Positions 8,187 through 22,417 of a DNA stretch of 22,417 nt are shown one piece after another. Numbering within the stretch: the first letter of the stretch is position 1; every line of letters begins with the position of its first letter. The position numbers were made by a program, and so were the translations under genes. The stretch is taken from the IMG/VR virus record IMGVR_UViG_3300046804_000600, positions 1 to 22,417 of that record, one strand, 5' to 3'. The stretch is from a virus. Below the pieces are notes generated by a model. That model did not search any database. It saw only the letters and a program-made list of their open reading frames with translations, and was not told the origin of the DNA.

Positions 8187-8189
8187 ATA
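8183..8189 (+). promoter_or_regulatory. Weak late-promoter-like box ATAAATA
   Basis: ATAAATA overlaps the stop codon of the preceding gene, 17 nt before the ATG at 8207. It lacks the G or T at the first position of the full box, so it may be chance in AT-rich DNA. Confidence 0.25.
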
Positions 8190-8206
8190 AATGACGGAAT
8201 ATAATT

Positions 8207-9019: not shown

Positions 9020-9025
9020 TAAATA
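9019..9025 (+). promoter_or_regulatory. Weak late-promoter-like box ATAAATA
   Basis: ATAAATA ends 4 nt before the ATG at 9030. With T4-like spacing the RNA would begin at about the start codon, leaving no leader. The incomplete box makes this uncertain. Confidence 0.25.
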
Positions 9026-9029
9026 GTTG

Positions 9030-9272
9030 ATGCAACATCCCTTCTTAGATATTAATGAAATATTAAAACTTAGCTTAGAAGAAATTCAACAAAAGATTTC
9101 TGACTTACAGGGCAAAATGGCATTTGCTCAACGAATGCGAAATGCGGCTATGATTGCACAGCTTCATATGGTGATTGATACTTATCAATCAGCCGCAGCC
9201 CAAAAGCTAGATGAAGTCTTTAAAAAGCAAAACGCCCAATCTCAAATAAGAATCCAAGAAGGTGCAAAATGA
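9030..9272 (+). CDS. Small helical protein, uncharacterised
   Basis: About 80 residues, nearly all predicted helix, with LSLEEIQQKISDLQGKMAFAQRM and a second segment AAMIAQLHMVIDTYQSAAAQKL. The heptad-like spacing of Leu, Ile and Met suggests a coiled-coil hairpin. I recall similar small helical proteins in T4-like phages but no function. I chose the ATG at 9030. A TTG one codon upstream (9027) is equally in frame, and neither has a Shine-Dalgarno. It overlaps the next gene by ATGA, so the two are probably translated together. Confidence 0.75.
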   Translation: MQHPFLDINEILKLSLEEIQQKISDLQGKMAFAQRMRNAAMIAQLHMVIDTYQSAAAQKLDEVFKKQNAQSQIRIQEGAK

Positions 9273-9886
9273 GTGCAAGAATCCACACCCAACTTAACTT
9301 CAATGCCGGTGCCTACTACGAAGGCAGCTTCTATATGGGAACATACGAAGTTGATTTAACTCTTACAGTAGAAACTGAATCTATCAGAGAACAAAATGTT
9401 GCCTTAGAAAGAATGAAATATTTTATGATGGAGACATTGGCTGACTCAGTTCTAATTAGAGATACTGAGACTGCTCAAATTGAAAAATATCTCAATGCTG
9501 ATTTGAAAGTATGTACATTACCCGAAGAACCATTCGACCAAGTTGTAGGTATTATGTTATTATGTAAGCTAAATGCAGTAGCAGAAGGCAGATTGTTAGT
9601 ATCTGATATCACAATTGGCTCATCGATGAGCGACGGAGTTAACTGCTTAATCAGTGATGATGAATTTCTAGGACCATTTGAAGCGTCTGGATGGTGGAAA
9701 GAGTGTTCTACCAAAATCAATGATTTAATTAGCAATAGACCAAACAAGAAAATTGTTAAACTAATTAAACCAGGAATAGATTGGACAGATGTATTCTTGG
9801 GTTGGGAAGAAAAGAAAGTCAAAAAAGATTCGAAACCAAATGCTGAAATTGTATTTGGTAGCTTTGAATCAAAAACGGACAAATAA
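9269..9886 (+). CDS. Uncharacterised conserved-looking phage protein
   Basis: A 205-residue protein I cannot assign. The N-terminal 60 residues are beta-rich with alternating aromatic residues (NFNAGAYYEGSFYMGTYEVDLTLTVET), then a helix (NVALERMKYFMMETLADSVLI), then a mixed alpha/beta core with WWKECSTKINDLI and a PGIDWTDVFLGWEE segment. The C-terminus is Lys-rich. There are no membrane segments. Its start overlaps the preceding small helical gene by ATGA. It is the last gene before a new sigma70-like promoter, so it belongs to the upstream late unit. Confidence 0.8.
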   Translation: MSARIHTQLNFNAGAYYEGSFYMGTYEVDLTLTVETESIREQNVALERMKYFMMETLADSVLIRDTETAQIEKYLNADLKVCTLPEEPFDQVVGIMLLCKLNAVAEGRLLVSDITIGSSMSDGVNCLISDDEFLGPFEASGWWKECSTKINDLISNRPNKKIVKLIKPGIDWTDVFLGWEEKKVKKDSKPNAEIVFGSFESKTDK

Positions 9887-9889
9887 CAC

Positions 9890-9918
9890 TTGACTTTACT
9901 TGTATAGTTGTGTAATAT
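9890..9918 (+). promoter_or_regulatory. Sigma70-type promoter, start at the ATG
   Basis: -35 TTGACT (9890-9895), 17-nt spacer, -10 TAATAT (9913-9918). The following CTTACT puts the expected RNA start at the A of the ATG at 9925, so the message should be leaderless. Confidence 0.8.
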
Positions 9919-9924
9919 CTTACT

Positions 9925-10431
9925 ATGCGTAATGATTCCTATGGACAACAAGTTTTGTCCGAAAATGACCTCTGTAATTTATATCTTCAAGACCCAGAGA
10001 GGATCATCCATTGGGCTCTAATAGAAAAAGAAATTAAAATAGACAAGGATCTTGGTATTACCAATGTACCGGAATTTAAGTTGTATCAATCTCCTACAGG
10101 ATCAATGGAGAATTTTGACAATCAAAAACAAAACTTCTGGTACATGCCCGAAGAGTACAAAAACTTTGATATTGCAAAATTTGTTTTGGATCAGTGTAAA
10201 GTAGAAGCAGAATTTCAACGAGCAGGTGAAGAACTGTTGATGTTCCAAGAACGTGATATGTTTATGATATTGCGATATTTGAAATACTTAGTGGATACTA
10301 TGCGAAAATATAATATCGTATGGGGAGTTGGTAGAGGATCAAGTGTAGCAAGCTATGTATTGTATCTGATTGGGGTACATCGTATAAATAGCTTGCACTA
10401 TGACTTATCGATAGATGAGTTTTTAAAATAA
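9925..10431 (+). CDS. Stand-alone fragment related to DNA polymerase III alpha (DnaE)
   Basis: A 168-residue protein whose C-terminal 65 residues match the part of bacterial DnaE just before the catalytic aspartates: a helix LRYLKYLVDTMRKYNI, then WGVGRGSSVASYVLYLIG, then INSLHYDLSIDEFLK. This corresponds to DnaE PGRGS...SLVAYALGI...DPL.Y.LLFERFL. The frame stops where DnaE would continue with its PDFDVDF motif, so the metal-binding aspartates are missing and polymerase activity is not expected. I recall short proteins of this kind in T4-like phage genomes, so it may be a stable stand-alone protein and not debris. A strong sigma70-like promoter serves it, and the predicted mRNA is leaderless. 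A role as binder of nucleotide or host replisome is only inference. Confidence 0.82.
   Translation: MRNDSYGQQVLSENDLCNLYLQDPERIIHWALIEKEIKIDKDLGITNVPEFKLYQSPTGSMENFDNQKQNFWYMPEEYKNFDIAKFVLDQCKVEAEFQRAGEELLMFQERDMFMILRYLKYLVDTMRKYNIVWGVGRGSSVASYVLYLIGVHRINSLHYDLSIDEFLK
10383..10390 (+). promoter_or_regulatory. Exact T4 late box TATAAATA inside a gene
   Basis: TATAAATA lies within the 3' end of the DnaE-like gene. It would start RNA near 10396, about 45 nt before the ATG at 10442, whose gene has a good Shine-Dalgarno. Confidence 0.4.
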
Positions 10432-10441
10432 GGAGTAAATT

Positions 10442-10771
10442 ATGAGTGGAGTATATCGTTCAGCAATGGGCAAACCCGTAGATATGGGTTCCATTGTATC
10501 AAAAAATGAAAGAGTTCGTGCTGTTGGAAATATGAACGTCAACGCACGAGGTGATATTTTGGATAGTAATAACAAAATCATCCGTGATAATACAAAACGT
10601 GTTAAAGATTCATATAAAAATGCAGTCAGAGATACATCTGGTACAATGCCACAGTTTGAAGACGAGGCTGCACCAGTAACACCCAATATCCCATATAAGG
10701 TAAATGTTACAGAGTTGTCACCCGAAGAGCAATTACTAGAAGATGAAGACCAAGACTTTGAAAAGAAGTAA
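10442..10771 (+). CDS. Small uncharacterised phage protein (VNARGD motif)
   Basis: A 109-residue soluble protein. The N-terminal half (GKPVDMGSIVSKNERVRAV, GNMNVNARGDILDSNNKII) resembles a short conserved protein I recall from T4-like cyanophages. It has no assigned function there. The C-terminal half is acidic and Pro-rich and likely disordered. A strong Shine-Dalgarno (AAGGAG, 10432-10437) precedes the ATG by 4 nt. An exact late box TATAAATA (10383-10390) lies upstream, so late expression and a virion role are possible but not shown. Confidence 0.78.
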   Translation: MSGVYRSAMGKPVDMGSIVSKNERVRAVGNMNVNARGDILDSNNKIIRDNTKRVKDSYKNAVRDTSGTMPQFEDEAAPVTPNIPYKVNVTELSPEEQLLEDEDQDFEKK

Positions 10772-10780
10772 CCAAAATAG

Positions 10781-10809
10781 TTGCATTAACTTAATTTGCC
10801 AAGTACAAT
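10781..10809 (+). promoter_or_regulatory. Sigma70-type promoter, start at the ATG
   Basis: -35 TTGCAT (10781-10786), 17-nt spacer, -10 TACAAT (10804-10809), then the same CTTACT-ATG junction as the promoter at 9890. RNA should begin at the ATG of the GroES-like gene (10816). Confidence 0.75.
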
Positions 10810-10815
10810 CTTACT

Positions 10816-11187
10816 ATGAAATCAGCATTTGAAGCACATAAGATAGAAAAAGCTAAATTCAAACCAATCGGTGAACATATTGTTGTAACAGACATGAAGT
10901 TCACCGAACGTATTACTACCGGTGGTATCATTCTAATGAATGACGACATGAAAAGTTCTGGTATTAGACCTCGTTGGTGTAGAGTTTATGCGTTAGGTCC
11001 TGATTATACAGGAGAACTTAAAGAGAACGATTGGATTCTTGTTAGTCATGGTCGATGGACTCGTGGTATCGACATTGAAGATGAGGAAGGTAAGAAAACC
11101 ATTCGTAGGGTAGATCCGAACGACATTTTATTGGTCAGTGATGAACCAATGGATGACGAAACAATTTCAGATAAGATTGTGGCATAA
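10816..11187 (+). CDS. GroES-like co-chaperonin
   Basis: A 123-residue Cpn10-fold protein, likely the functional match of T4 gp31. It would cap host GroEL to widen or adjust the folding chamber, classically for the major capsid protein. The match covers FKPIGEHIVVTDMKF (N-terminal barrel strand), TERITTGGIILMNDD (mobile loop with the GGIIL hydrophobic tripeptide at 36-40 that docks to GroEL), then RVYALGPD, ENDWILVSHGRWT and DPNDILLVSDE, matching GroES VLAVGNG, VGDIVIFNDGYG and ESDILAIVE. It is longer than GroES (97 residues), with an extra N-terminal helix and an acidic C-terminal tail. No Shine-Dalgarno is present, and the sigma70-like promoter predicts a leaderless mRNA. Confidence 0.92.
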   Translation: MKSAFEAHKIEKAKFKPIGEHIVVTDMKFTERITTGGIILMNDDMKSSGIRPRWCRVYALGPDYTGELKENDWILVSHGRWTRGIDIEDEEGKKTIRRVDPNDILLVSDEPMDDETISDKIVA

Positions 11188-11189
11188 CA

Positions 11190-11540
11190 ATGAAATGGTT
11201 ATTTAAATGGTTGCGTGATGGCATTAACGACCTCGATACACCAGTCTCATCAGACAGAGAATACATTAATCGAGGAGTCCAAGTTGGATTGGCTGTTCCT
11301 AAAATGAGAAAGAGTCCAAGAGAACTTGCGGCTGCAACTGCATCTGACGGATCAATTCATCTTAATCAAAGTCCTATGAATTTTAGAATTTACCCGGCAA
11401 CTGGTGGACACATTGTAGAATACACTTACTACAATGAAAAAACGGATAGGAATGACCAAGCATTACATCTGATACCCAGTGAACTTGACTTAGGTTCAGA
11501 ACTTGCTAAAATTATGACTTTAGAAGCACTTAAACGTTAA
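11190..11540 (+). CDS. Uncharacterised phage protein
   Basis: A 116-residue protein of unknown function. It starts with an amphipathic helix (MKWLFKWLRDGIND), then a basic linker (VPKMRKSPREL), then a compact alpha/beta part: MNFRIYPATGGHIVEYTYYNE with DRNDQALHLIP and a C-terminal helix. I recall similar short proteins in T4-like phages without a function. The ATG lies 2 nt after the GroES-like stop and has no clear Shine-Dalgarno, so translation is probably coupled to the upstream gene. Confidence 0.78.
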   Translation: MKWLFKWLRDGINDLDTPVSSDREYINRGVQVGLAVPKMRKSPRELAAATASDGSIHLNQSPMNFRIYPATGGHIVEYTYYNEKTDRNDQALHLIPSELDLGSELAKIMTLEALKR

Positions 11541-11550
11541 GGAGAAAATT

Positions 11551-12240
11551 ATGGATACTTTATTTGACACCGCAGTTACGTACAGAACTCCCGCAGACAT
11601 TAATCGCTCGATGGGGCGTGTCTACGGTTACATGAGTTTGGCAGTATGTATTAGTATGTTAGTTAGCATGTATGTTGGCATGACGCCCGAATTGTTGCAG
11701 TTTTTCTTTACTGGTGTAATGAAATGGGTTGTAATCTTTGCCCCTTTAGTATTTGTTATGCTAGTTCCAATTATGCTTAACTCAGGGATAGGTAGAACCG
11801 GGGCAGTAGCTTTGCTATCAGCGTTTGCCGCATTGATGGGTCTTAGTTTTGCAGTAATATTTGCTGTCTATACACTAGGTTCAATCTTTACTGCGTTTAT
11901 GGGCGCAGGTGTGTTGTTCGGTACTATGAGTTTTTATGGTTACTTTACTAAACGTAACCTAGATAGTATGGGACAATTTATGTTCATTGGATTGATTGCA
12001 ATTGTAATTGCTAGTATAATCAATATCTTTATTGGCAGTACAGTTATGCAGATGGTTATCTCAGCATTGGCTATCATTATCTTCTTGGGTTTAACTGCGT
12101 ATGATACGCAAAAGATCCGCGAAGAATTGTATGAATCAGGCGATACTACTATTGCAGAAGTCTCAGGTGCATTAACTCTGTATTTGGACTTTATTAACTT
12201 GTTCTTGTCGTTGTTGCAACTATTCGGTGAAAAGAAATAA
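11551..12240 (+). CDS. BAX inhibitor-1 (BI-1/YccA/YbhL) family membrane protein
   Basis: A 229-residue polytopic inner-membrane protein. It has about seven hydrophobic segments (roughly 24-44, 56-76, 82-100, 102-127, 140-160, 165-182 and 206-225). Family signatures include YGYFTKRNLDSMGQF, the NIFIGS loop, GLTAYDTQKI and YLDFINLFLSLLQLFG. The two acidic residues D185 and D213 probably correspond to the pH-sensing aspartate pair described in the bacterial homologue YetJ, which leaks calcium. In E. coli, YccA of this family restrains the membrane protease FtsH. A phage copy could therefore protect phage membrane proteins or alter membrane ion flow. That is inference. A strong AAGGAG precedes the ATG, and the stop overlaps the clamp-loader start (TAATG). 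Confidence 0.93.
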   Translation: MDTLFDTAVTYRTPADINRSMGRVYGYMSLAVCISMLVSMYVGMTPELLQFFFTGVMKWVVIFAPLVFVMLVPIMLNSGIGRTGAVALLSAFAALMGLSFAVIFAVYTLGSIFTAFMGAGVLFGTMSFYGYFTKRNLDSMGQFMFIGLIAIVIASIINIFIGSTVMQMVISALAIIIFLGLTAYDTQKIREELYESGDTTIAEVSGALTLYLDFINLFLSLLQLFGEKK

Positions 12241-13166
12241 TGAGAAATAATCTTTGGGTTGAGAAATATAGACCAAGTTCAGTATCAGACTATGTGTTTG
12301 TTGACGACCGTCAACGTGAACAAGTTACTGGTTGGATTCAAGCAGGAGAGATTCCTCACTTACTGTTGAGCGGTGAACCAGGTACAGGTAAAACTACTCT
12401 TGCTAAAGTTCTTATCAAGGAACTAGGAGTTGACGATTACGATGTATTAGAAATCAATGCATCACGTGAAAACTCAGTAGACACGGTTCGTGATAAAATC
12501 ACTGGGTTTGTTCAAACAATGCCCTTTGGTAAGTTCAAAATCGTTTTACTTGACGAGGCTGATTATCTAAGTCCTGCAGGTCAGGCAGCATTGCGTAATG
12601 ATATGGAAGCATATTCCATGACAGCACGATTCATTTTGACTTGTAACTATGAGCATCGTGTTATTCCAGCATTGCGTGAAAGTCGTTGCCACAAATTTCA
12701 CATTGCTAAGCCAGATAAAACTGAATTTACAGCAAGAGCCGCAACAGTTCTAGTAAATGAAAATATTGAATTTGATTTAGATGTTTTGGATACTTATGTG
12801 GGAGCAAGTTATCCTGACTTGCGTAAGTGTTTGAATCAATTACAAGTAAATAGTAGTACGGGTAAATTGTTACAACCTACAAGTCAAGGTTCTAACGAAG
12901 ATGAAATGCTTGTTGACGCAACACAACTGTTTAAGAACGGTAAAGTGACTGAAGGTCGCCAGCAACTACTTCAATATTTGAGTTTGCATCCTAGTAGAAT
13001 CGAAGACATTTACCGCTGGATGTACACGAATTTAGATTTATGGGGTAATACCCAAGATAAGAAAGATGCTAACATCATTATTATTCGTAATGGTTTAGCG
13101 AATTTAAGCCTAGTTGGTATCCCTGAAATCAACTTGGCAGCTACTTTAATTGAGTTATCACAATGA
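12240..13166 (+). CDS. Clamp-loader ATPase (T4 gp44 / RFC small subunit type)
   Basis: A 308-residue AAA+ ATPase that opens and loads the sliding clamp on primer-template DNA. Motifs appear in order: WVEKYRP (6-12, RFC signature), Walker A GEPGTGKTT (45-53), Walker B LLDEADYL (103-110), sensor-1 FILTCNY (131-137) and the arginine-finger SRC motif within RESRCHKF (148-150). The C-terminal 110 residues are helical and fit the collar domain. Length and motifs match T4 gp44. Its partner (gp62-like) and the clamp (gp45-like) are not seen in this window. The start overlaps the BI-1 stop and the end overlaps the next gene by ATGA, so the three form a tightly coupled unit. Confidence 0.95.
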   Translation: MRNNLWVEKYRPSSVSDYVFVDDRQREQVTGWIQAGEIPHLLLSGEPGTGKTTLAKVLIKELGVDDYDVLEINASRENSVDTVRDKITGFVQTMPFGKFKIVLLDEADYLSPAGQAALRNDMEAYSMTARFILTCNYEHRVIPALRESRCHKFHIAKPDKTEFTARAATVLVNENIEFDLDVLDTYVGASYPDLRKCLNQLQVNSSTGKLLQPTSQGSNEDEMLVDATQLFKNGKVTEGRQQLLQYLSLHPSRIEDIYRWMYTNLDLWGNTQDKKDANIIIIRNGLANLSLVGIPEINLAATLIELSQ

Positions 13167-13420
13167 GATATTTACTAATCACTTATGTCCGTAAAGCGGA
13201 CGGAAAAATTGATGAACAGGTTACTGTTTCAAAACGAACTAAAGACACTGATATACAAATGTGTAATGTAATCTTAGATTACAAAGACAAAAAAGTAGTC
13301 AAGTCTGTTATTGATGGTCATGCTATGCCCACAACATGGGAAAAGATTGATACTTATTACCGTGAATTGTATCCAAGCATCATTGAACGTTTAGAACAAG
13401 AAGCCGGGACAGACGAATAA
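13163..13420 (+). CDS. Small conserved phage protein next to the clamp loader
   Basis: 85 residues, alpha/beta: a strand MRYLLITYVRK, then DEQVTVSKRTKDTDIQMCNVILDYKDKKVVKSVIDG and a helical tail WEKIDTYYRELYPSIIERL. I recall similar short proteins beside replication genes in T4-like cyanophages, with no function given. It is too short to be an obvious gp62 clamp-loader partner, though coupling through ATGA overlap with the clamp-loader gene leaves that open. A terminator follows directly. Confidence 0.8.
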   Translation: MRYLLITYVRKADGKIDEQVTVSKRTKDTDIQMCNVILDYKDKKVVKSVIDGHAMPTTWEKIDTYYRELYPSIIERLEQEAGTDE

Positions 13421-13444
13421 AAAGGGGCGCAAAGCCCCTTTTTT
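13420..13444. terminator. Bidirectional terminator between convergent genes
   Basis: A 9-bp stem (AAAAGGGGC at 13420-13428 with GCCCCTTTT at 13434-13442) around a GCAAA loop. It is flanked by A-rich and T-rich runs (TTTTTT at 13439-13444 on plus, and a T run on minus), so it can end both the plus-strand unit and phoH. Confidence 0.93.
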
Positions 13445-14267
13445 ATTGATATAGATTTAAGACATGTTCGATGATCCTGTGTCGTTGAACATCTTTCAGT
13501 TCAAAGTTGCATAACTGCAATCCAGGAATCACCCCCTTTCTCAATCGATTTTGTAAGTCTAGTAGCCCATTGTCGGCTGTTTTTCTATCGGCTTGTTCAA
13601 TGTCGCCAGTAATTACAATCTTACTACCGACTCCGATTCTAGTCATAATCATTTTGAGTTGACCAGGAGTTGCATTTTGTGCTTCATCAAGTATAATGTA
13701 GCTGTGCTTAAAGTTACGACCTCGACAAAATGCTAGGGGTGCAATTTCCACTATCTGTTCTTCTAGCATGTGGGCGATTTCACTCGCTGTATAATACTCT
13801 CTTAAAACATCTAATAACGGTCTAGTCCATGGCTCCATTTTCTGATTAATGTCGCCTGGTAAGAAACCATGTTTTTCATCTTCAACACCAACTGCTGGGC
13901 GTGTCAGGATAATACGGTCTACTTCACCTGCCTTCAATGCTTTGATAGCGGCTTGCATAGCTAAGTAAGTTTTACCTGTTCCTGCTGGTCCACCAACAAC
14001 GACAATATCTGTGTTTTCGTTTAATAGTGCGAGGATGTATTTTTCCTGATTGACGGACTTGGGCACTAATTGTATTGGACGTCTGTCTAATTTTACTCGT
14101 GCTTGGTCGAAATTGATTGTTTTTGATTCCTTTGTGTAGAATGTCTGTGTGTCATGTTTTTTACTGTGTGAGTATCGTGTATCTTGCTCTTGTTGACGCA
14201 ATGCGCCAGTTTTTCTTTTACTCAAAATAAGCTCTCCTTGGTCGAGTATTGTGTTCTCATAAAACAC
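13443..14267 (-). CDS. phoH: PhoH-like P-loop ATPase
   Basis: A 274-residue (if GTG-started) PhoH-family ATPase, a frequent gene in marine phages whose role in infection is unclear. Links to RNA metabolism and phosphate stress have been suggested. Motifs: Walker A GGPAGTGKTY (92-101), LTRPAVGVEDEKHGFLPGD (121-139), Walker B IILDEAQN (181-188), ITGDIEQAD (219-227) and the C-terminal QRHRIIEHVL. The N-terminal 60 residues are variable and polar. Two starts compete: GTG at 14267 without a Shine-Dalgarno, and TTG at 14225 with a perfect AAGGAG 8 nt upstream (260 residues). The family core begins well after both. It is the only gene on this strand and stops at the shared terminator. Confidence 0.94.
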   Translation of the reverse strand: MFYENTILDQGELILSKRKTGALRQQEQDTRYSHSKKHDTQTFYTKESKTINFDQARVKLDRRPIQLVPKSVNQEKYILALLNENTDIVVVGGPAGTGKTYLAMQAAIKALKAGEVDRIILTRPAVGVEDEKHGFLPGDINQKMEPWTRPLLDVLREYYTASEIAHMLEEQIVEIAPLAFCRGRNFKHSYIILDEAQNATPGQLKMIMTRIGVGSKIVITGDIEQADRKTADNGLLDLQNRLRKGVIPGLQLCNFELKDVQRHRIIEHVLNLYQ

Positions 14268-14327
14268 AAGAATATTTAAATTACTTTAGTGTGTTGATAA
14301 TAGCGTACTTTTTGTGCATACATTCCT

Positions 14328-14335
14328 GATAAATA
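14328..14335 (+). promoter_or_regulatory. T4-late-type promoter box GATAAATA
   Basis: GATAAATA in the 131-bp divergent gap between phoH and the gene at 14399. Transcription would start near 14341, giving a leader of about 58 nt. It is the first of two such boxes here. No clear sigma70 promoter for phoH is visible in this gap. Confidence 0.5.
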
Positions 14336-14368
14336 TTAGGCTGTTCTCAATCTTTTTATAAAGCTCAA

Positions 14369-14387
14369 TATCATCAGCAAGATGATA
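14369..14387 (+). repeat. Inverted repeat overlapping a late promoter
   Basis: Perfect 7-bp arms TATCATC (14369-14375) and GATGATA (14381-14387) around AGCAA. The 3' arm contains the first bases of the GATAAATA box at 14384, 11 nt before the ATG at 14399. It may be a protein-binding site or a hairpin in transcripts from the upstream box. Confidence 0.55.
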
Positions 14388-14391
14388 AATA
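14384..14391 (+). promoter_or_regulatory. T4-late-type promoter box GATAAATA close to the ATG
   Basis: The box within ATGATAAATACT ends 7 nt before the ATG at 14399. With T4-like spacing the RNA starts at about 14397, so this message would be leaderless or nearly so. Confidence 0.55.
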
Positions 14392-14398
14392 CTAAACT

Positions 14399-15028
14399 AT
14401 GAGCAATCCTTCAGACGAATTTTTCAAAGATATCGATTATCCTAGCATCATCGATACTATTAAAGGTGTTTACTTTAGTGACGCCACAATCAACTCATTA
14501 TTGGATTTTGAACGAGTCCTAGATGAAGCAGACCTATACGCATACAAGAATTGGGATTTGGGCGAACTTGTTAGAGGCCCTGATGTCAAAAAGTACAATG
14601 TTTCTTGCGTATTCATGTACCCGGAAAGATTGATGCCCGATCCACGCGGTGGAAAGAGATTGATTCGTTTAGGTTGTACGATTAAATTCAAGAAAACAAA
14701 AATTAAAGTTCCAGTCAAAATCGAATCACAAGACGATTATAAACCCGGGACTCATTATCCAAAAACAGTAGAACGTGATGTATGGTTAGTATACATCCAG
14801 ATGCCTAAAGACTTGATGAACGATATCCGTGAAGGTTCTATTGACTTAGCAGACCAAACTATCGACTTGGAAGAGTTAGATAATGCGTATGAGGATGATT
14901 TAGATAAAGAGGGTAATGAGGGCGAGGAGAATGAAGGTTCCGGTCAGGCGCCAGCCCAGGGTGATATGAGCATAGGTGGAGGTTTGCCACCGCCACCAAT
15001 GGGTCAACCACAAGGAGGACCAATGTAA
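14399..15028 (+). CDS. Uncharacterised late phage protein with acidic and Gly/Pro-rich tail
   Basis: A 209-residue protein I cannot assign. Residues 1-150 appear folded, with an N-terminal helical part (DEFFKDIDYPSIIDTIKGVY) and a beta-rich part (YNVSCVFMYPERLM, LIRLGCTIKFKKTKIKV, RDVWLVYIQMP). Residues about 155-185 are strongly acidic, and the end (GGGLPPPPMGQPQGGPM) is Gly/Pro-rich and disordered. No Shine-Dalgarno is visible. Two GATAAATA boxes upstream point to late expression. It overlaps the next gene by one base (TAATG), so the two are probably made together. A structural or assembly role is plausible but unproven. Confidence 0.82.
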   Translation: MSNPSDEFFKDIDYPSIIDTIKGVYFSDATINSLLDFERVLDEADLYAYKNWDLGELVRGPDVKKYNVSCVFMYPERLMPDPRGGKRLIRLGCTIKFKKTKIKVPVKIESQDDYKPGTHYPKTVERDVWLVYIQMPKDLMNDIREGSIDLADQTIDLEELDNAYEDDLDKEGNEGEENEGSGQAPAQGDMSIGGGLPPPPMGQPQGGPM

Positions 15029-15585
15029 TGTCTAAGATTCTAACAGAAGGTCTAGACCATATGGACTTGCAGGGTCAAGTAATTCCTAAAATCACACTAG
15101 ACAAATATGAAGCTAAAATGGGCAGTGATGATGAAATCGTCACAGTCTCTATGGTTGTAAAAAGCAATTCAGCAAGTGAAGATTTAGTAGATTGGTTTGA
15201 ACGTGGTTACGATTGGGTATTAGACGGTAAAGTTAGTGACGGTGAACTTACTACTGGTAAATTTGTAGTGTTCATTGAGCTAGACCGTAGAACCAAAGTA
15301 CCAGAAAGAATAATTGAAATAGTTGAAGATATGGAAACATTAACTGGGTTGTCAGTTGATGACTGGACAATGGAAATAGATGGTCAGGAATATCCATTAA
15401 GTGCAGACAAAATGAGAGAATTGATTCCATTAAGCCCGCACGAGTATAGAGAAAGATTCCCCGAAGAATCAGAAGATGATGAAGGGTTGAATGAGATGCG
15501 TGAACGTGCTGGATTAGCACCACATAAATCAAACAAAGTACAAGATTCATTATTAAAAGATTTTATAGCAAAGGCAGGATTATAA
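15028..15585 (+). CDS. Uncharacterised phage protein
   Basis: A 185-residue soluble protein of unknown function. It has an alpha/beta start (DLQGQVIPKITLDKYEAKMGSD), a strand-helix region (VTVSMVVKSNSASEDLVDWFERGYDWVLDGKV), a strand FVVFIELDRR, and an acidic helical C-terminus ending in DSLLKDFIAKAGL. I recall proteins of this type in T4-like phages near structural genes. It overlaps the upstream gene (TAATG) and abuts the next one (0 nt), so the three genes 14399-16206 form one unit. Confidence 0.8.
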   Translation: MSKILTEGLDHMDLQGQVIPKITLDKYEAKMGSDDEIVTVSMVVKSNSASEDLVDWFERGYDWVLDGKVSDGELTTGKFVVFIELDRRTKVPERIIEIVEDMETLTGLSVDDWTMEIDGQEYPLSADKMRELIPLSPHEYRERFPEESEDDEGLNEMRERAGLAPHKSNKVQDSLLKDFIAKAGL

Positions 15586-16206
15586 ATGGCAACATTATTA
15601 CCAAGAAAATCAGGACCACAAGATAACGCAATTGCAACTGATGATGACCATCACGAAGCATTGTCAAGTGATCCAGCAGTATCAGCATTCCCACAAGGAA
15701 GTTCATTTGGAGGATTCGGAAATGCAACATCAAATGGCACAGCAGCATTTGGCGCACCTCAAGCAGGAGGCTTCGGTGGTTCCACCGGCTTTAGTTCAAC
15801 AACTACAACATCGTCAACAACTAGCAGTTTCGGAGCAAGTCCGTCAATACAATCAGGAGCATCTATGCCACAACACAACCCAGCAGATTCTTTAAAATCA
15901 GGCGGAGGCGCAATGTCCGAAGGTGGTGAATCTACTGTAGCATTAGACAAAGATGCAACAGATTGGATTAATAAGAAATGGCGTCCAGTTATGGGTTGGG
16001 TGTACATGATGACATGTACCTGTGACTTTGTTGTGTTCCCGGTACTATGGTCATTGTTACAAGCATTGACACATGGTAACGTTACAAGTCAATGGCAACC
16101 ATTAACATTGCAAGGCGCTGGTCTATACCACATTGCAATGGGTGCAGTTCTAGGTATCGCAGCTTATGGGCGAACAAAAGAAAAAATCGAGGGTGCGGCA
16201 AAATAA
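15586..16206 (+). CDS. Holin-like membrane protein with FG-rich disordered N-terminus
   Basis: A 206-residue two-part protein. Residues about 35-90 are Ser/Thr/Gly-rich with five FG dipeptides (F41, F44, F55, F63, F82) and resemble nucleoporin FG repeats in composition. Residues about 130-206 hold WRPVMGWVYM, a long hydrophobic stretch (134-161), a polar loop, a second segment (176-195), and the ending GRTKEKIEG. This arrangement (RP near the first membrane segment, RTxEKxxG after the last) matches the 3TM holin family first described for gene transfer agents. A holin would release the endolysin (GH19 gene, about 10 kb upstream) at lysis. AGGA lies 9 nt before the ATG. The holin assignment is likely but rests on a short pattern. 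The role of the FG part is unknown. Confidence 0.8.
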   Translation: MATLLPRKSGPQDNAIATDDDHHEALSSDPAVSAFPQGSSFGGFGNATSNGTAAFGAPQAGGFGGSTGFSSTTTTSSTTSSFGASPSIQSGASMPQHNPADSLKSGGGAMSEGGESTVALDKDATDWINKKWRPVMGWVYMMTCTCDFVVFPVLWSLLQALTHGNVTSQWQPLTLQGAGLYHIAMGAVLGIAAYGRTKEKIEGAAK

Positions 16207-16209
16207 ATA
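16203..16209 (+). promoter_or_regulatory. Weak late-promoter-like box ATAAATA
   Basis: ATAAATA overlaps the stop codon of the holin-like gene, just before a much stronger sigma70-like promoter. It lacks the G or T first base and may be chance. Confidence 0.2.
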
Positions 16210-16238
16210 TTGACTTAACGCACAAACTGCGTTATACT
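16210..16238 (+). promoter_or_regulatory. Sigma70-type promoter of the dnaJ-clpA unit
   Basis: -35 TTGACT (16210-16215), 17-nt spacer, -10 TATACT (16233-16238), then 7 nt to the ATG at 16246. RNA should start at or within 2 nt of the ATG, so dnaJ is probably leaderless. The spacer holds a palindrome. Confidence 0.85.
16216..16234 (+). promoter_or_regulatory. Candidate operator in the promoter spacer
   Basis: Perfect 7-bp arms TAACGCA (16216-16222) and TGCGTTA (16228-16234) around CAAAC. It fills the -35/-10 spacer and overlaps the first two -10 bases. A dimeric regulator bound here would block RNA polymerase. It is not the CIRCE heat-shock operator. The other two sigma70-like promoters of the window lack it. 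Confidence 0.55.
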
Positions 16239-16245
16239 TAATATT

Positions 16246-17070
16246 ATGAGCGACCACTATCAAACTCTCGGGGTAGACAGAAATGCCTCCCCCGACGAAA
16301 TCAAAAAAGCATACAGAAAATTAGCGGCAGTACATCACCCTGACAAGGGTGGTGATACAGCCATGTTCCAGAAGGTACAAGCTGCCTACGATACTTTATC
16401 AGACCCAGAAAAGAAAGCACAATATGATAATCCACATCAACACCACTTTGGCGGAAACAGCCCATTCGGATTTGAGTTTCACACCAATGGATTTAATGTC
16501 AATGACCTCTTCGGTTCAGTCTTCGGACAAGGAGGTCATCCTTTCTTCGGACAAGGATTTCAGAATAATCGACAACCAACATATCGCACCACAGTTTGGT
16601 TATCTTTGGAACAGGTATGTACAGGTGGAGAACAAGTACTACAACTGCAAACACCCAACAGTGGACTTCAAACTGTAAAAATCAATATCCCATTGGGTGT
16701 TGAAAATGGTGAACAATATAAGTATACGGATTTGATTAAAGATGCTACGCTTATGGTTGACTTTAGAGTTCACCCTCACCCAAAGTTTGAACGTCATAGA
16801 TTTGACTTGTTGACCAAATTAGAAGTATCAGTGTTAGATTTAATTGTGGGCACATCAGTTAAGTTCACCACTATTTATGGGAAAGAACTTGAAGTAACTG
16901 TCCCAGCTAAATCTAAACCGGGCACAATGTTGAGAATTGCTGGTTCAGGCGTTCCATTTAATGGGCAAAACGGTGACCAAATGCTATTGATTATACCAGT
17001 AATGCCTGATACAATAGACGACAGAATAGTTCAAAGTATTCTACAATGTCAACCATCACGAGGAAACTAA
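16246..17070 (+). CDS. dnaJ: DnaJ-type co-chaperone (type II, CbpA-like)
   Basis: A 274-residue J-domain protein that should stimulate ATP hydrolysis by host DnaK and hand it clients. The J domain covers residues 1-60 ([23 protein letters not shown] at 31-33, [21 protein letters not shown]). A Gly/Phe-rich linker follows (about 68-108, [10 protein letters not shown] to FFGQGFQNN), then the C-terminal client-binding beta domains ([48 protein letters not shown]). The Cys-rich zinc domain of DnaJ is absent, which makes it type II. In phage lambda, DnaJ and DnaK remodel the replication complex, so a phage-encoded J protein could redirect host DnaK. It heads the unit with clpA. The start sits at the predicted RNA 5' end with no Shine-Dalgarno. 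Confidence 0.95.
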
Positions 17071-17073
17071 TAA

Positions 17074-19347
17074 TTGACTAACTCACCTGAAATTGAATCC
17101 ATTATTGAGCAAGCAATTGGATTCGCAAAAGAGCGCAACCATGAATACTGCACTATTGAACACTTGCTATTGAGTTTAATTTCATATACTCCCTTTAAAA
17201 AGTGTTTGCATGGTTATGGTATTGACGTTGAATCAATGACCAAAGAAGTTGTAGGATATGTTGATAGTTTACACGCTATCAAAGTAACCGACACTAGTAA
17301 AGAAGTTCATCCTAGAAAAACTAACAGTTTAGAACGAGTGATGAATCGGTCAGTAACTCAAGTGTTGTTTACTGGTAGAAAACAAGTTACTACGGTTGAC
17401 TTGTATCTAAGTATTGCACACGAAACAAACAGTCATGCTCATTACTTTCTTCTAAAGTATGGTATCAATAAGAATGAGTTTGTACCATACTGGCAAAAAC
17501 ATTATAAGAATCAAGAATCGTACTCTAACTTGACTGAAACTCAAGCAGACGAGATTTTAGAAGAATACACCTCTAACCTAACAGAACTTGCACACAAAGG
17601 CAAAGTTGAACCGTTGATTGGTCGTGCATTTGAAATTGATGAAATTGTTAACGTATTAGCAAAACGATTCAAATCAAACGTATTGATGGTGGGCGATCCA
17701 GGTGTAGGTAAAACTGCTATTGCAGAAGGTCTTGCCCTGAAGATTGTAGAAGGTGATGTTCCTGAGTTTTTGAAGGGCCACACTCTTTATTCGCTTGAAG
17801 TGGGTTCATTGCTTGCTGGCTCAAAGTATCGTGGTGACTTTGAAGAAAAGATTAAAGCAATCATTGAAGCATTGAACACAAAGAAAAAAGCAATCCTATT
17901 CATTGACGAAGCACACACTATGAAGGGTGCAGGTTCAAGTAACAATAGTGGTCCTGACTTTGCTAACATGATTAAGCCTGCTATCACAAAAGGCACATTG
18001 AAAGTTATTGCAAGTACAACTTGGGAAGAATTCTACGAAAGTTTTGAGAAGGATCGTGCGTTGATGCGTAGATTCTATAAAGTATCAGTAGACGAACCAA
18101 ATCGTGAATCAACTATTCGTATTTTGAATGGTCTAAGCACACGATTGAATGACTTTCACCATGTTGAAATCAAAGAAGATGCAATCGTTGCGGCAGTTGA
18201 TGCGGCTACACGATATATGCACGATAGAAAGAACCCAGATAAGTCAATCGACCTGATTGATGCCGCTTGTGCTAAACAACGAGTATTGGGTAATGACGGT
18301 GCTATCATCACTAAAGAACTAGTATACGAACAAGTTGAGCGTATGACCAAAGTTCCTGCTGATAAACTCAACAATGATAATAACGACCGTATTATTAATC
18401 TCGAAACTAATGTTAAAGATAAACTATATGGTCAAGAAGAATCAGTTAATCAAGTACTTGAACGATTGTATGTGTCATTTGCGGGTATCGGTAATGATAC
18501 AAAGCCAATGGCAAGTTTCTTGTTCTTAGGACCAACTGGTACAGGTAAAACTGAACTAGCACGACTATTATCTAAGAATCTGGACATGCCATTGTTGAAG
18601 TACGACATGTCAGAATATAGTGAAAAGTTCAACGTATCAGCATTACTAGGTGCCCCTCCCGGATACGTAGGTTACGGTGAAGGCAACTTAGGTGGTGGTC
18701 GATTAATCAACGACTTGAGCAAGAATCCTCATGCTATCTTGTTGTTTGACGAAGTTGAAAAAGCTCACCCTGATATCTTTAATGTGTTCTTGCAACTACT
18801 TGATGAAGGTCGAGTAACAGGTACGAACGGTAAAGAAGTCAATGCTAAGAACTGTATCGTCATTATGACTAGTAACTTAGGTGCTAGTGACAGTGAAAAG
18901 AACATGATTGGTTTTGGTAGTCAAGAAAAGACAGGTGAAGATGACAAGGCTCTTAAAGAATTCTTTAAACCTGAATTCAGAAACCGTATCGATTTGATTA
19001 CTAAATTCAACAAACTCGACACATTGGCGATTAAGAAGATTGTAGTGAAGTTTACAGATGTCCTTAAGAATTCTCTGAAAGAAACCTACGATATCACTCT
19101 GAATTTGTCAGAGAATGTTGTAGATTATCTAGCGGAAAAGGGTTATGATCCTAAGATGGGCGCACGTCCTCTAGGTCGTAAAATTGATGAGTTGATTCGT
19201 GTACCATTATCAAAGAAAATCTTGTTTGAACGAATTAAGAATTCAAACATTACAGCAAACTTGGTCGGTGAAGAAATTCAATTTGATGTTCAACAAAAAT
19301 TAACAGCAGAAGTAGGCGAAGATGGGATTATTAAAGTCAGCCAATAA
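17074..19347 (+). CDS. clpA: ClpA-type AAA+ unfoldase with ClpP-docking motif
   Basis: A 757-residue Hsp100 protein that unfolds and threads proteins, close to E. coli ClpA in length (758). In order: N domain (about 1-145, HEYCTIEHLLLSLI); D1 with Walker A GDPGVGKT (207-214) and Walker B ILFIDEAHT (about 273-281); D2 with Walker A GPTGTGKTE (about 486-494), Walker B LLFDEVEKAHPD (about 554-565), EFRNRID and GARPLGRKID. The long coiled-coil middle domain of ClpB is missing. NMIGFG places an IGF tripeptide at 612-614, where ClpA carries its IGL loop for binding ClpP. It can therefore probably feed substrates to host ClpP. No clpP is seen in the window. The start is TTG: a stop lies directly upstream in frame, AGGA is 9 nt before, and the N domain needs this start. 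Confidence 0.94.
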   Translation: MTNSPEIESIIEQAIGFAKERNHEYCTIEHLLLSLISYTPFKKCLHGYGIDVESMTKEVVGYVDSLHAIKVTDTSKEVHPRKTNSLERVMNRSVTQVLFTGRKQVTTVDLYLSIAHETNSHAHYFLLKYGINKNEFVPYWQKHYKNQESYSNLTETQADEILEEYTSNLTELAHKGKVEPLIGRAFEIDEIVNVLAKRFKSNVLMVGDPGVGKTAIAEGLALKIVEGDVPEFLKGHTLYSLEVGSLLAGSKYRGDFEEKIKAIIEALNTKKKAILFIDEAHTMKGAGSSNNSGPDFANMIKPAITKGTLKVIASTTWEEFYESFEKDRALMRRFYKVSVDEPNRESTIRILNGLSTRLNDFHHVEIKEDAIVAAVDAATRYMHDRKNPDKSIDLIDAACAKQRVLGNDGAIITKELVYEQVERMTKVPADKLNNDNNDRIINLETNVKDKLYGQEESVNQVLERLYVSFAGIGNDTKPMASFLFLGPTGTGKTELARLLSKNLDMPLLKYDMSEYSEKFNVSALLGAPPGYVGYGEGNLGGGRLINDLSKNPHAILLFDEVEKAHPDIFNVFLQLLDEGRVTGTNGKEVNAKNCIVIMTSNLGASDSEKNMIGFGSQEKTGEDDKALKEFFKPEFRNRIDLITKFNKLDTLAIKKIVVKFTDVLKNSLKETYDITLNLSENVVDYLAEKGYDPKMGARPLGRKIDELIRVPLSKKILFERIKNSNITANLVGEEIQFDVQQKLTAEVGEDGIIKVSQ

Positions 19348-20077: not shown

Positions 20078-20245
20078 ATGGCAAAGATTGTAGAAGAAGT
20101 TGTAGTAATCAAACTAAGCAAATTAGTTAAAGAAAACACTGAATCCACTGGTTTAATCGCCAGCAATGAAATATGTGATGCACTAGAGCAAGTTGCACAA
20201 GAACTTGCAGGCGATGGTGTGGTTGTCGAAGTAGTGAGAGCATAA
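20078..20245 (+). CDS. Small uncharacterised protein (55 residues)
   Basis: A 55-residue protein, MAKIVEEVVVIKLSKLV and so on, ending DGVVVEVVRA. A first strand (VEEVVVIKLSKLV), a helix (SNEICDALEQVAQELAGD) and a last strand (GVVVEVVRA) would make a small beta-alpha-beta fold. The function is unknown. It is supported by a late promoter box upstream, a one-base overlap (TAATG) with the next gene, and ordinary codon use. The likely Shine-Dalgarno AGGG is weak and lies in a hairpin, which suggests translation is controlled. Confidence 0.72.
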   Translation: MAKIVEEVVVIKLSKLVKENTESTGLIASNEICDALEQVAQELAGDGVVVEVVRA

Positions 20246-20586
20246 TGAGCCAACCAGTAACAATCACATTAATCCCCCAGACAGCAAGTACTGGGCAGAA
20301 CACACTTATTACAAGTGATAAACACCCTGCAGCCGGTTACTATCTAAGCAAGAAAGATTTCCAAACTTTTACTTGGAACTTTACCTCAGTTTCTGGAATT
20401 TTAACTTTCCAAGCTACATTAGCAGAAACCCCCACAGAAGATGATTGGTTTGTAGTTCACACTATTAACGCAACCAGTTCAACACAAAACAGTTATGTTA
20501 ACATCACGGGTAACTTTGTTTGGTTACGTGCCGTTATGAATAACTTTAGTACTGGAACAATACAACATATCAAGGTAAGTTATTAA
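20245..20586 (+). CDS. Small beta-rich, probably structural protein
   Basis: A 113-residue protein composed mostly of beta strands (VTITLIPQTAS, FTWNFTSVSGILTFQATLAETP, DDWFVVHTINATS, SYVNITGNFVWLRAVMNNFSTGTIQHIKVSY). The layout, with a TEDDWF turn and a FVWLRA strand, resembles small beta-sandwich domains in phage virion proteins. It has no signal peptide. It overlaps genes on both sides by one base (TAATG twice) and so belongs to the late unit starting at 20078. A virion decoration or tail role is only an inference from fold type and context. Confidence 0.78.
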   Translation: MSQPVTITLIPQTASTGQNTLITSDKHPAAGYYLSKKDFQTFTWNFTSVSGILTFQATLAETPTEDDWFVVHTINATSSTQNSYVNITGNFVWLRAVMNNFSTGTIQHIKVSY

Positions 20587-21344
20587 TGATATTGCTAGAA
20601 GGCGGAAACATTTGGGACGATGTTGAGACTAATTTTGACCCCGGTCAAGTTGGTAAACCACTGACTGCCACAACACAAAAGATTTTAGATAACTTAGGTG
20701 TTAGTGTTAACACTATTGGTAGTTGCTGGAAGCCCCGCTATGACAGAAATGGTAACGTTGTTCCTAGCAACGACTTAGATGCTATGGTAGATTTAGCAAT
20801 GTTGCAACATGTATTTCAAACTTCCGATGGTAAAACAACTAGACAAGCACTAGATGATTATCTACAAAAACAAGGATTGAAAACATATAAAGCAGGTGTT
20901 ACTGTTCATACTAGAATCCCAATGGGCGGCAAGTTTTATCAAGTTGATTTGAAAGTTGTCCCTAACGCAGCCAAAGTTGCACAATTTCATAGACACGATA
21001 TCCCTCAAGGTTCACCTTACAAGGGCGTTAATAAGCAATTAGTTATGAATGCCTTAGCAACAAGTCAAAATATGTTATGGAGTCCTGATGAAGGATTGTA
21101 TGCACGTGATGCAGCCGGTAAGAAAGCACAATTATTAAGTGACGACTGGGATAAAATTGCTCAGTATTTGCTAGGCAAAGGCGCATCTGGTAAAGATTTG
21201 GGTAGTGTAGAATCAATCTTATCAAAGTTGCCTGATAATAGAAAAGAAGAAGTTTTGAATCTAGCACGAAGTGGACGTAGTTGGCAATCTGCAACACCCG
21301 GAGTCAATGAATGGTTTCGTAGAACATTGGATATGCTAAAATGA
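20586..21344 (+). CDS. Pol-beta-fold nucleotidyltransferase-like protein
   Basis: A 252-residue protein with the signature of the Pol-beta nucleotidyltransferase superfamily. It has IGS (44-46) after a helix, then NDLDAMVD with the metal-binding pair D63 and D65, and QVDLKVV with the third acidic residue D121 on a following strand. All three expected acidic residues are present, so it may be active. The reaction could be transfer of a nucleotide to RNA, DNA, protein or a small molecule and cannot be told from sequence. The loop between GS and DxD (16 residues) is longer than the common form. Residues 150-252 are helical and may bind the substrate. It overlaps the upstream gene by one base and the downstream ligase-like gene by ATGA, so the two enzymes are probably made together. 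Confidence 0.8.
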   Translation: MILLEGGNIWDDVETNFDPGQVGKPLTATTQKILDNLGVSVNTIGSCWKPRYDRNGNVVPSNDLDAMVDLAMLQHVFQTSDGKTTRQALDDYLQKQGLKTYKAGVTVHTRIPMGGKFYQVDLKVVPNAAKVAQFHRHDIPQGSPYKGVNKQLVMNALATSQNMLWSPDEGLYARDAAGKKAQLLSDDWDKIAQYLLGKGASGKDLGSVESILSKLPDNRKEEVLNLARSGRSWQSATPGVNEWFRRTLDMLK

Positions 21345-22417
21345 AAATAGAAGATTTTTTATTTGAGGCTTCTTCTGATGTAGGAAGAAAGTATCAGCAT
21401 ATAGAAGATTTAGTGATTGCTAACGGCAGTCATGGTGCAATGCATGCCGTCGAAAGAATGTATTACATGATCCACAACTACGATTCGATTGAATTAAAGT
21501 GGGACGGTATGCCTGTCGTCTACTGGGGTAGAGATAACAAGGGTATATTTAGAATGATTCCGAAAAATGCATGGGCTTATCTATCGAGAGGTGCAATGCA
21601 AACTAAATCGGGAGTTAAGACTTTACCTGATAATCCACAAGATGTTGTCAACTTCATTACTGGCACCGGTGGTGCAGCAGATGAAGGTCGTATGAATTTT
21701 GCAAAGAACGTAGCTAGTCTATGGTCTTTGTTAGAGAAAGCAAGCCCCAAACGTGGGTTTTTAGAAGGTGGTATTTTGTTTTATCCTGGTGTTAAACCAG
21801 ACGGTAATACTGCAATGCCAGTGTTAAATCCAAGAACAAAGACATATGACTTTATGCCGAACATCACTGCATTTCATGTGCCAGTTGGTAGTGACTTGGG
21901 TAAAAAAATTAAAAGTGCTAAAATGATGATTGCAGCCACTGGCTTCTTTGATAAGCTAGGTAGCACCACTGAAGGCAGATTGGATAACACAAATACGTTA
22001 AGCACTAAAGATGTTATAGTTCAAGGTACAACATATGTTGAAGAAATGCCAGGAGTATCTACTAGTGGATTAGATAAACTAAAGAAATTTATAGAAGCAA
22101 ATGCACAAGTAATTGATAACTATCTTGCACCAAAGCCAGGATTGAATAGTCCAGGTGGTGAATTATACACTTATCTAAATAAACATTTGAGAACAACAGG
22201 GTTATTAAAAGATTTCCCTGCTTGGGCACAACAGAATTTAAGTCCTAAGAAAGCTGAAATCATGCTAAGTGATAAAGCTGGATTGAAGGCAACGTTGGGT
22301 GCAGTAGAAGCTATCACTAACGAAAAAATGAATATTATCAAGTCATTAAGTATTGGGTTACACGGTGGTATAATGCAAACTAACCCAGAAGGTTATGTTC
22401 ACGCACACCCTGAAATT
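21341..22417 (+). CDS. Ligase-type (KxDG) nucleotidyltransferase-like protein, 3' end outside window
   Basis: The frame is open to the window end, giving 359 residues of an incomplete protein. ELKWDGMPVVYWGRD places K53-W-D55-G56 in the form of motif I (KxDG) of ATP-dependent DNA/RNA ligases and capping enzymes, where the lysine carries AMP or GMP. FLEGGILFYPG (140-150) could be motif III. NPEGYVHAHPEI at the very end could be motif IV (EGxV), but the gap of about 200 residues before it is longer than in typical ligases, implying an insertion. Motif V would lie beyond the window. I recall phage proteins of this type annotated only as domains of unknown function. The start overlaps the nucleotidyltransferase stop by ATGA. 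Ligase activity is a hypothesis. The gene is secure. Confidence 0.78.
   Translation, partial: MKIEDFLFEASSDVGRKYQHIEDLVIANGSHGAMHAVERMYYMIHNYDSIELKWDGMPVVYWGRDNKGIFRMIPKNAWAYLSRGAMQTKSGVKTLPDNPQDVVNFITGTGGAADEGRMNFAKNVASLWSLLEKASPKRGFLEGGILFYPGVKPDGNTAMPVLNPRTKTYDFMPNITAFHVPVGSDLGKKIKSAKMMIAATGFFDKLGSTTEGRLDNTNTLSTKDVIVQGTTYVEEMPGVSTSGLDKLKKFIEANAQVIDNYLAPKPGLNSPGGELYTYLNKHLRTTGLLKDFPAWAQQNLSPKKAEIMLSDKAGLKATLGAVEAITNEKMNIIKSLSIGLHGGIMQTNPEGYVHAHPEI

Follow-up and report, generated by a model that had tools for sequence, protein, structure and literature searches.

Candidate capsid-delivered nucleotidyltransferases encoded by adjacent or fused genes in uncultured T4-like phages

Introduction

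What does a phage do with a polymerase-like and a ligase-like nucleotidyltransferase encoded in two overlapping genes, and where do these proteins act? The question is raised by the 3' end of a 22,417-base virus record (IMG/VR IMGVR_UViG_3300046804_000600), the whole of which was analysed and is called the window in the following. A preliminary description, made from the letters alone, had read the two genes as a Pol-beta-type nucleotidyltransferase and a KxDG ligase-like protein that might form an end-repair or tagging module. Both frames are present where it had placed them (Table 1) and overlap by ATGA; the second is cut by the end of the record. We name the products P1 and P2 and describe, from relatives, a third enzyme, P3, that follows them. 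The N-terminus of P2 resembles the leaders of the internal proteins of phage T4. It is moderately likely that P1, P2 and P3 are packaged and are catalytically competent nucleotidyltransferases, an estimate that leaves their substrate aside.

Results

P1 and P2 have a Pol-beta-type predicted fold and ligase-like motifs, respectively

The AlphaFold model of P1 (mean predicted local distance difference test score, pLDDT, 90.8) retrieved in Foldseek only Pol beta, lambda and mu among the first 50 rows (E from 4.3e-7, probability 1.0), and comparison with Pol beta in VIA gave a Z of 12.3 across 178 residues at 3.5 Å. The fold proposed in the preliminary description was thereby borne out, and the GS, D63/D65 and D121 it had named are at the positions given; G45, S46, D63, D65 and D121 are unchanged throughout 42 P1 homologues. 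From predicted fold and residues we assign P1 with high confidence to the Pol-beta superfamily, and a metal-dependent transfer activity is predicted.

By its profile match P2 is a divergent member of DUF6267 (PF19782): residues 19-65 match with an E of 7.6e-10 and 39.1 bits (gathering cut-off 27), and a fused relative matches over 344 residues (237-580; E 4.2e-15, 56.4 bits). The earlier statement that neither protein belongs to a nameable family does not hold for P2 but stands for P1, which matched no family in Pfam or PHROG. The missing 3' end of P2 was read from the relative L036, in which P2 is 84% identical and has a full length of 384 residues; it is EGYVQAHPEINLQHDLPGQFLKLIDQMNW and includes the lysine of motif V. 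The structure was predicted from the L036 version (mean pLDDT 87.5), and motif V was taken from relatives, as the window ends before it. RNA and DNA ligases made up nearly all of the first 40 VIA rows, with Naegleria RNA ligase (Z 6.3), the trypanosome RNA editing ligase TbREL1 (6.0), the tRNA ligase Trl1 (5.5) and T4 Rnl1 (5.2) ahead of the DNA ligases, which agrees with the ligase-like fold that had been suggested. In BFVD, RNA ligases rank directly below P2's own family (probability 0.80). Z values in this middling range may mean only a common arrangement, but they gain weight because a single functional class fills the list.

KWDG, LEGG and EGYV are located as previously described. The K, D and G of KWDG, the E and both G of LEGG and many further residues are invariant in 40 P2 homologues, and in an alignment of distant DUF6267 proteins of cultured phages KWDG is again invariant, (Q/E)G(D/G)L and EG(Y/F)V are found in most and a final lysine lies in K(L/T/A/M)(V/I), so that the order is that of ligase motifs I, III, IV and V. 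In part of the window clade EGYA replaces EG(Y/F)V. Since they are invariant across homologues, the motifs noted in P1 and P2 are far from chance. None of the contrary results that the preliminary description had listed occurred: the predicted folds resemble those of nucleotidyltransferases and, more modestly, ligases, D63/D65/D121 and K53 are conserved and a motif V lysine follows EGYV in relatives.

Several observations speak against reading P2 as a ligase. The structural likeness is modest, with VIA Z values of at most 6.3, which is below 8, and a best Foldseek E of 0.3 in the PDB; the second acid of motif III is Gly in the P2 clade (LEGG for QGDL); the protein stops soon past motif V and has neither OB domain nor motif VI. 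An hhalign comparison of DUF6267 with the RNA ligases of PF09414 was not significant (prob 0.2) and aligned only KWDG with motif I. In Pfam, P2 gave the match to DUF6267 and none to a ligase family. Because profiles alone do not connect DUF6267 to PF09414, "ligase-like" is used here as a statement on fold and motifs and not on family membership, and P2 should not be called a ligase short of an adenylylation or ligation assay. In this sense a ligase-like P2 is supported by modest fold similarity and motifs, and its activity is predicted. No paper in the literature searched names DUF6267.

P3 follows P1 and P2, and the three are fused in some relatives

Among relatives with enough sequence, P2 directly follows P1 in 69 of 70 loci and P3, which lies beyond the window edge and is known from these relatives, was found in 63. 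The two-gene unit of the preliminary description is thus real but incomplete, since a third enzyme normally comes next and fusions occur. P3 carries GWGRGMGHxGH and GPRATPMR, in line with the GRxxxHxGH and TxxR pattern, and matches cytidyltransferase families of PHROG (phrog_3041, E 3.5e-17). P3 itself matched nothing in Pfam; the cyanophage cytidylyltransferases related to it match CTP_transf_like (PF01467). By sequence, P3 is best described as an HxGH nucleotidyltransferase resembling NMNAT and cytidylyltransferases. Searches of PDB sequences with queries A1, A2 and A3 and a cyanophage P3 gave no relevant match.

The three proteins are encoded by three genes (L036, L043), with P1 and P2 fused (L024, L030), with P2 and P3 fused (L011, L045, L056) or as one P1-P2-P3 protein (L058, L061, L083). 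These fusions are strong evidence, at the level of gene arrangement, that P1, P2 and P3 work or are delivered jointly. In the window, the P1 start codon begins with the final base of the stop codon of the preceding gene (20245-20586); because of this and the ATGA overlap, the preceding gene, P1 and P2 look translationally coupled. Query A1 found two contigs of metagenome-assembled genomes (MAGs) among bacterial and archaeal genomes, both phage-like in appearance. A marine contig filed under a Gammaproteobacteria MAG (L132:4908-6754) encodes, together with a P1 of 36% identity, a DUF6267-type protein that begins MRAWQILTE↓A (the arrow marks a candidate cut, see below); no P3 adjoins this pair, and a small gene, kinase-like by eye, is next.

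The tails of P3 hold exchangeable modules between QGVAE↓A/G-like sites, among them a SpoT-like HD domain, GNAT and dCMP deaminase (genes in Table 1), as well as a conserved S.DY(L/I)(D/E)EK at the C-terminus and a YHAT sequence whose likeness to ADP-ribosyltransferases was judged by eye only. A twin-arginine-like signal, SRRGFLRGAGAAAALGA, is found in one P3 tail (L017:1636-4392, residues 651-671) and in the third gene of L036, there directly behind a possible protease site; an export signal on a phage-injected protein would be odd. Downstream of P3, L043 encodes a second, different Pol-beta-type nucleotidyltransferase (9035-10150; phrog_36119, C-terminal DUF5661), a relative of which is present in virions of the cyanophage S-CREM2.

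The modules bear on another explanation, namely that P2 is a different lysyl-AMP/GMP transferase, either of the capping type or a modifier of proteins or small molecules, that P1 modifies proteins or small molecules as well, and that the kit tags host targets on entry. Members of the Pol-beta superfamily often modify proteins or antibiotics, and T4 Alt tags host targets with ADP-ribose on entry. P2 has nucleotidyltransferase motifs but lacks the C-terminal ligase elements named above and carries a helical insert of ~100 residues between motifs IIIa and IV, and the GNAT, deaminase and HD domains are further modifier-like parts. We nevertheless regard such a tagging function as doubtful, as the best structural matches of both proteins are polynucleotide enzymes, i.e. 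Pol X polymerases for P1 and RNA ligases for P2.

P1, P2 and P3 carry candidate prohead-protease sites

The leader pattern at the P2 start was matched by only one of the 74 open frames of the window, P2 itself. In 47 of 48 distinct sequences (L/I/V/F)xE↓A stands ahead of the P2 domain, at gene starts as well as at fused junctions (background: 1.3% per 11-residue stretch elsewhere in the same proteins), and the surrounding residues vary while the site stays. Leaders of the window clade, MKFSDILFE↓A and MKIKEFITE↓A among them, read hydrophobic-x-x-hydrophobic-(L/I)-x-E↓A. Fused genes, in which no gene start is possible, keep the site (e.g. QQINE↓AADVGRKYQH), as expected of a cleavage site between two products, and xxE is present in all 22 P2-P3 linkers of fused genes. 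In the P3 tails 83 sites were counted (25.6 expected) and in the domains encoded by these genes 37 (38.8 expected), although these counts are not fully independent because P3 tails share conserved stretches and the rows are related. In P1, E5-G6-G7-N8 is invariant in the 42 homologues, and relatives have longer leaders ending in LME↓GGN or INE↓GGN. Residues 1-5 of the P1 model and 1-13 of the L036 P2 model have pLDDT values below 50, and the unconfident N-termini end roughly at the site in both.

The prohead protease of T4, gp21, cleaves behind (L/I)-x-E, about ten N-terminal residues of the T4 internal proteins suffice for head packaging, and in IPIII residues 4 and 7 matter in targeting, 8 and 10 in cutting (PMC9026906, PMC7697877). 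In the T4 record, IPII and IPIII both begin MKTYQEFIAE↓A. The window is a fragment without the head cluster, and gp21 was seen in a near relative: a 260-kb contig, whose P1 is 81% identical to that of the window, encodes gp21 (PF03420, E 8e-29) and gp23 (PF07068, E 1e-98), arranged as in T4; its capsid protein has LxE↓S/G sites at the start and its scaffold 11 sites. The starts of its open reading frames (ORFs) are only moderately enriched, with 13 sites in the first 10 residues where 5 are expected, and for this reason the leader pattern should be relied on only where it is conserved. The window frame at 1-1728 was considered as a further packaged protein and rejected, as it has about as many sites as chance would give (2 against 1.5). 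The product of window 15028-15585 starts MSKILTE↓G, and MKQILVE↓G in the 260-kb relative; it is a candidate packaged protein with no match in Pfam.

Leader-bearing enzymes are reported from cyanophage virions

Purified virions of S-SM1 hold the putative cytidylyltransferase T4-GC190, the product of a core cyanophage gene, according to Sullivan et al. (PMC3037559). Its translation starts MKKFSAFLNE↓AERS; as in T4 IPIII, positions 4, 7 and 8 are hydrophobic and position 10 is E. The S-CREM2 virion holds the cytidylyltransferase ORF154 (PMC10665884), which begins MKNFSSFLTE↓A, and ORF156, which is a Pol-beta-type nucleotidyltransferase by sequence, its S-H34 orthologue matching PF01909 at an E of 0.004, short of the curated cut-off; the window clade has a relative of ORF156 (31% identity, E 4e-34), encoded downstream of P3. 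A 10-residue leader pattern occurs in six annotated S-CREM2 genes, and five of the six products, an S-adenosylmethionine (SAM) hydrolase, a kinase, the cytidylyltransferase, gp13 and gp136, are in the 52-protein virion list obtained by mass spectrometry (P = 0.003, a value that is merely indicative because the pattern had been tuned beforehand on T4 and cyanophage examples, S-CREM2 proteins included). A similar pattern picked IPII, IPIII and gp24, all known or annotated gp21 substrates, from the 91 frames of a 49-kb part of T4 and the cytidylyltransferase alone among 130 frames in 45 kb of S-SM1. Why cyanophage virions should contain such enzymes has been a puzzle, and the groups that discovered them were unable to rule out contamination; the T4-type leader shared by the five S-CREM2 virion proteins supports real packaging over contamination. 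The Cas9 in S-CREM2 virions (7704-10313) has RFASFMAE↓A about 25 residues in.

DUF6267 and cytidylyltransferase genes are adjacent or close in phages of Synechococcus, Prochlorococcus and Methylophilales (P-HM1, Melnitz, C48C1, P-TIM40), and a Pelagibacter phage has a cytidylyltransferase with a DUF6267-type gene nearby. P1 is missing from the cultured-phage regions of this kind that were inspected. The DUF6267 protein of Melnitz bears a leader, which ends INFSKYITE↓D. A tblastn search (E 1e-3) of 50,697 phage records matched neither P1 nor P2, the cyanophages being reached by the fused relative only. In the literature searched, no paper except a T4 review joins capsid targeting and cyanophages.

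Some of these findings count against a packaged P1-P2-P3 kit. Most window-clade leaders fall one residue short of the T4 capsid-targeting sequence, and that of P1 has only five residues. The DUF6267 proteins of the cyanophages P-HM1, P-TIM40 and S-SM1 have no such leader, the S-CREM2 authors warn that such enzymes may be abundant purification contaminants (PMC10665884), the absence of P1 from the phage records means that P2 and P3 can function without it, and the virion data come from cyanophages with distant P3 relatives, whereas the window clade is uncultured, so that they apply to it by analogy. The leaderless DUF6267 proteins and the contamination warning would also suit an ordinary intracellular operon, whose products act in the infected cell in RNA or DNA repair or NAD metabolism while LxE↓A stays unprocessed; the cyanophage genes indeed sit among replication and recombination genes (gp41, uvsX, mazG). 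We consider this unlikely, as the site is kept at 47 of 48 junctions in variable surroundings, is enriched in linkers and tails and not in domains, and cyanophage virion enzymes bear the T4-type leader. A virion location, together with the long, site-rich tails of P3 and several neighbours, could alternatively mean that the three are structural or core head proteins with decayed, non-catalytic enzyme folds. This is very unlikely, given that the catalytic residues of P1, motifs I, IV and V of P2 and the HxGH/TxxR of P3 show little or no variation among sequences of 30-80% identity.

Other features of the window

The window encodes a 168-residue stand-alone piece that matches the NTPase domain of DNA polymerase III alpha (9925-10431; PF07733, phrog_11127) and is far too short for a polymerase. 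A chaperone-rich cluster (10816-19347) close to the genes of the candidate packaged enzymes comprises a GroES-like co-chaperonin, a ClpA/B-like ATPase whose start codon is TTG, a protein that looks DnaJ-like by eye and a Bax inhibitor-1 membrane protein (PF01027, E 5.9e-53). The 1187-residue protein encoded at 1828-5391 has many GNANIGNIGT-like repeats and is probably a fibre or beta-helix structural protein.

Table 1 Features of the P1-P2 locus and of related records. Positions refer to the window unless another record is named; ↓, candidate cut.
Feature	Position	Strand	Evidence or remark
P1, Pol-beta-type nucleotidyltransferase, 252 residues	20586-21344	+	ORF list, AlphaFold, Foldseek, VIA
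MILLE↓GGN, short P1 N-terminal (L/I)xE↓G, possible prohead-protease site	20586-20600	+	
GS of nucleotidyltransferase motif (G45, S46 of P1)	20718-20723	+	invariant
DLD, metal-binding D63 and D65 of P1	20772-20780	+	invariant
D121 of P1, third catalytic aspartate (QVD)	20946-20948	+	invariant
P2, DUF6267 ligase-like protein, 359 residues in window	21341-22417	+	open at contig end
ATGA, P1 stop overlapping P2 start	21341-21344	+	overlapping, close or fused in relatives
MKIEDFLFE↓A (then SS), candidate capsid-targeting sequence and prohead-protease site, cut after codon 9 of P2	21341-21367	+	
KWDG, ligase motif I (K53 of P2)	21497-21508	+	invariant family-wide
LEGG (P2 141-144), position of ligase motif III	21761-21772	+	QGDL in cyanophage relatives
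PNITAFHV, candidate motif IIIa	21857-21880	+	conserved block; assigned by position
EGYV (P2 350-353), ligase motif IV	22388-22399	+	motif V lysine (FLKLIDQ) just past window end
P3-tail module genes	L036:6152-8548, L008:6895-9900, L057:6131-8866, L014:1148-4174, L012:1512-4646		
S-CREM2 leader-bearing virion proteins (record OR473000, L167-L170)	3837-5081, 10310-10546, 10579-12846, 107301-108014, 124608-125468		

Discussion

A possible course of events

We propose that an uncultured T4-like phage would make P1, P2 and P3 as precursors, separate or fused, that short N-terminal leaders would target them into the prohead core and that a gp21-type prohead protease would free them at (L/I)xE↓A. They would then be injected with the phage DNA, as T4 internal proteins are, and act before phage gene expression. 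Cleavage, packaging and injection of these very proteins appear quite likely. In the cell, P1 would add nucleotides to damaged nucleic-acid ends and P2 would adenylylate and seal them, the ends being those of RNA such as cleaved tRNA or of incoming DNA. The bias of P2 to RNA ligases would suit an RNA target such as a tRNA cleaved by an anticodon nuclease, that of P1 to Pol X a DNA target. End repair of nucleic acids may be the likeliest role of P1 and P2, though we put it forward tentatively. The NMNAT-like P3 may synthesise or regenerate a nucleotide cofactor, NAD for instance, or produce a CDP or ADP compound, and its NAD-related role is suggested with the same reserve. The exchangeable P3-tail modules (SpoT-like HD, GNAT, deaminase, Tat-like piece) would fit a general first-response kit; PADLOC gave no convincing match for a defence association.

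Taken as a whole, the most detailed version is doubtful, in which T4-like phages of fresh and marine water deliver a protease-released enzyme polyprotein in the capsid, often made as one precursor, with P1 for gap filling or tailing, P2 for sealing, P3 for cofactor making and exchangeable modules (SpoT-like HD hydrolase, deaminase, acetyltransferase, a piece with an export-like signal), injected against host nucleases and alarm signals before phage genes are read. Three things are new: P1, P2 and P3 arranged in a polyprotein, DUF6267 read as ligase-like, and a leader that would account for the enzymes in virions. The leader of the T4 internal-protein type would be a rule readable from the genome, as in S-CREM2, where most of its bearers, SAM hydrolase and kinase included, are in the virion list. 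Should this rule hold, one could predict which proteins uncultured T4-like phages inject, and P1-P2-P3 would be a new type of early-acting system in which Pol-X-like and ligase-like enzymes arrive with the DNA. DUF6267, present in hundreds of marine phages, thereby gains a testable activity and location.

Comparison with known systems

P1 is like the DNA polymerase beta/Pol X family in fold, GS, DxD and third Asp but, at 252 residues, has no N-terminal lyase domain and no detectable sequence family. P2 resembles the RNA ligases (Naegleria RNA ligase, TbREL1, Trl1 and T4 Rnl1) in overall nucleotidyltransferase fold, has motifs I, IV and V like them, and differs from them by the low Z, the lack of a significant profile match, the helical insert and having almost nothing past motif V. 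Hundreds of cultured phages carry members of the P2 and P3 families in the same order, as the cyanophage pair T4-GC71 and T4-GC190 (phrog_455, phrog_3041), and the cytidylyltransferase of this pair is reported from virions, as proposed for P3 (PMC10665884, PMC3037559); the cyanophages inspected have another gene upstream in place of P1, their DUF6267 proteins have no leader and identity is 23-31%. In the giant phages phiKZ and SPN3US, a gp21 relative processes many head proteins at xxE, and the host receives them as an ejected enzyme bolus (PMC9026906, PMC7411985); this is similar in principle but concerns another phage group and other proteins. With the T4 internal proteins (IPI, IPII, IPIII, Alt), P1-P2-P3 have in common the N-terminal leader ending in (L/I)xE, a gp21-type protease, here in a near relative, and presumed injection with the DNA. 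The T4 proteins are not nucleotidyltransferases, whereas P1-P2-P3 are three enzyme domains sharing an operon or polyprotein, and the window-clade leaders differ, with 8-11 residues. By analogy, P1-P2-P3 probably work like the T4 internal proteins and belong to that kind.

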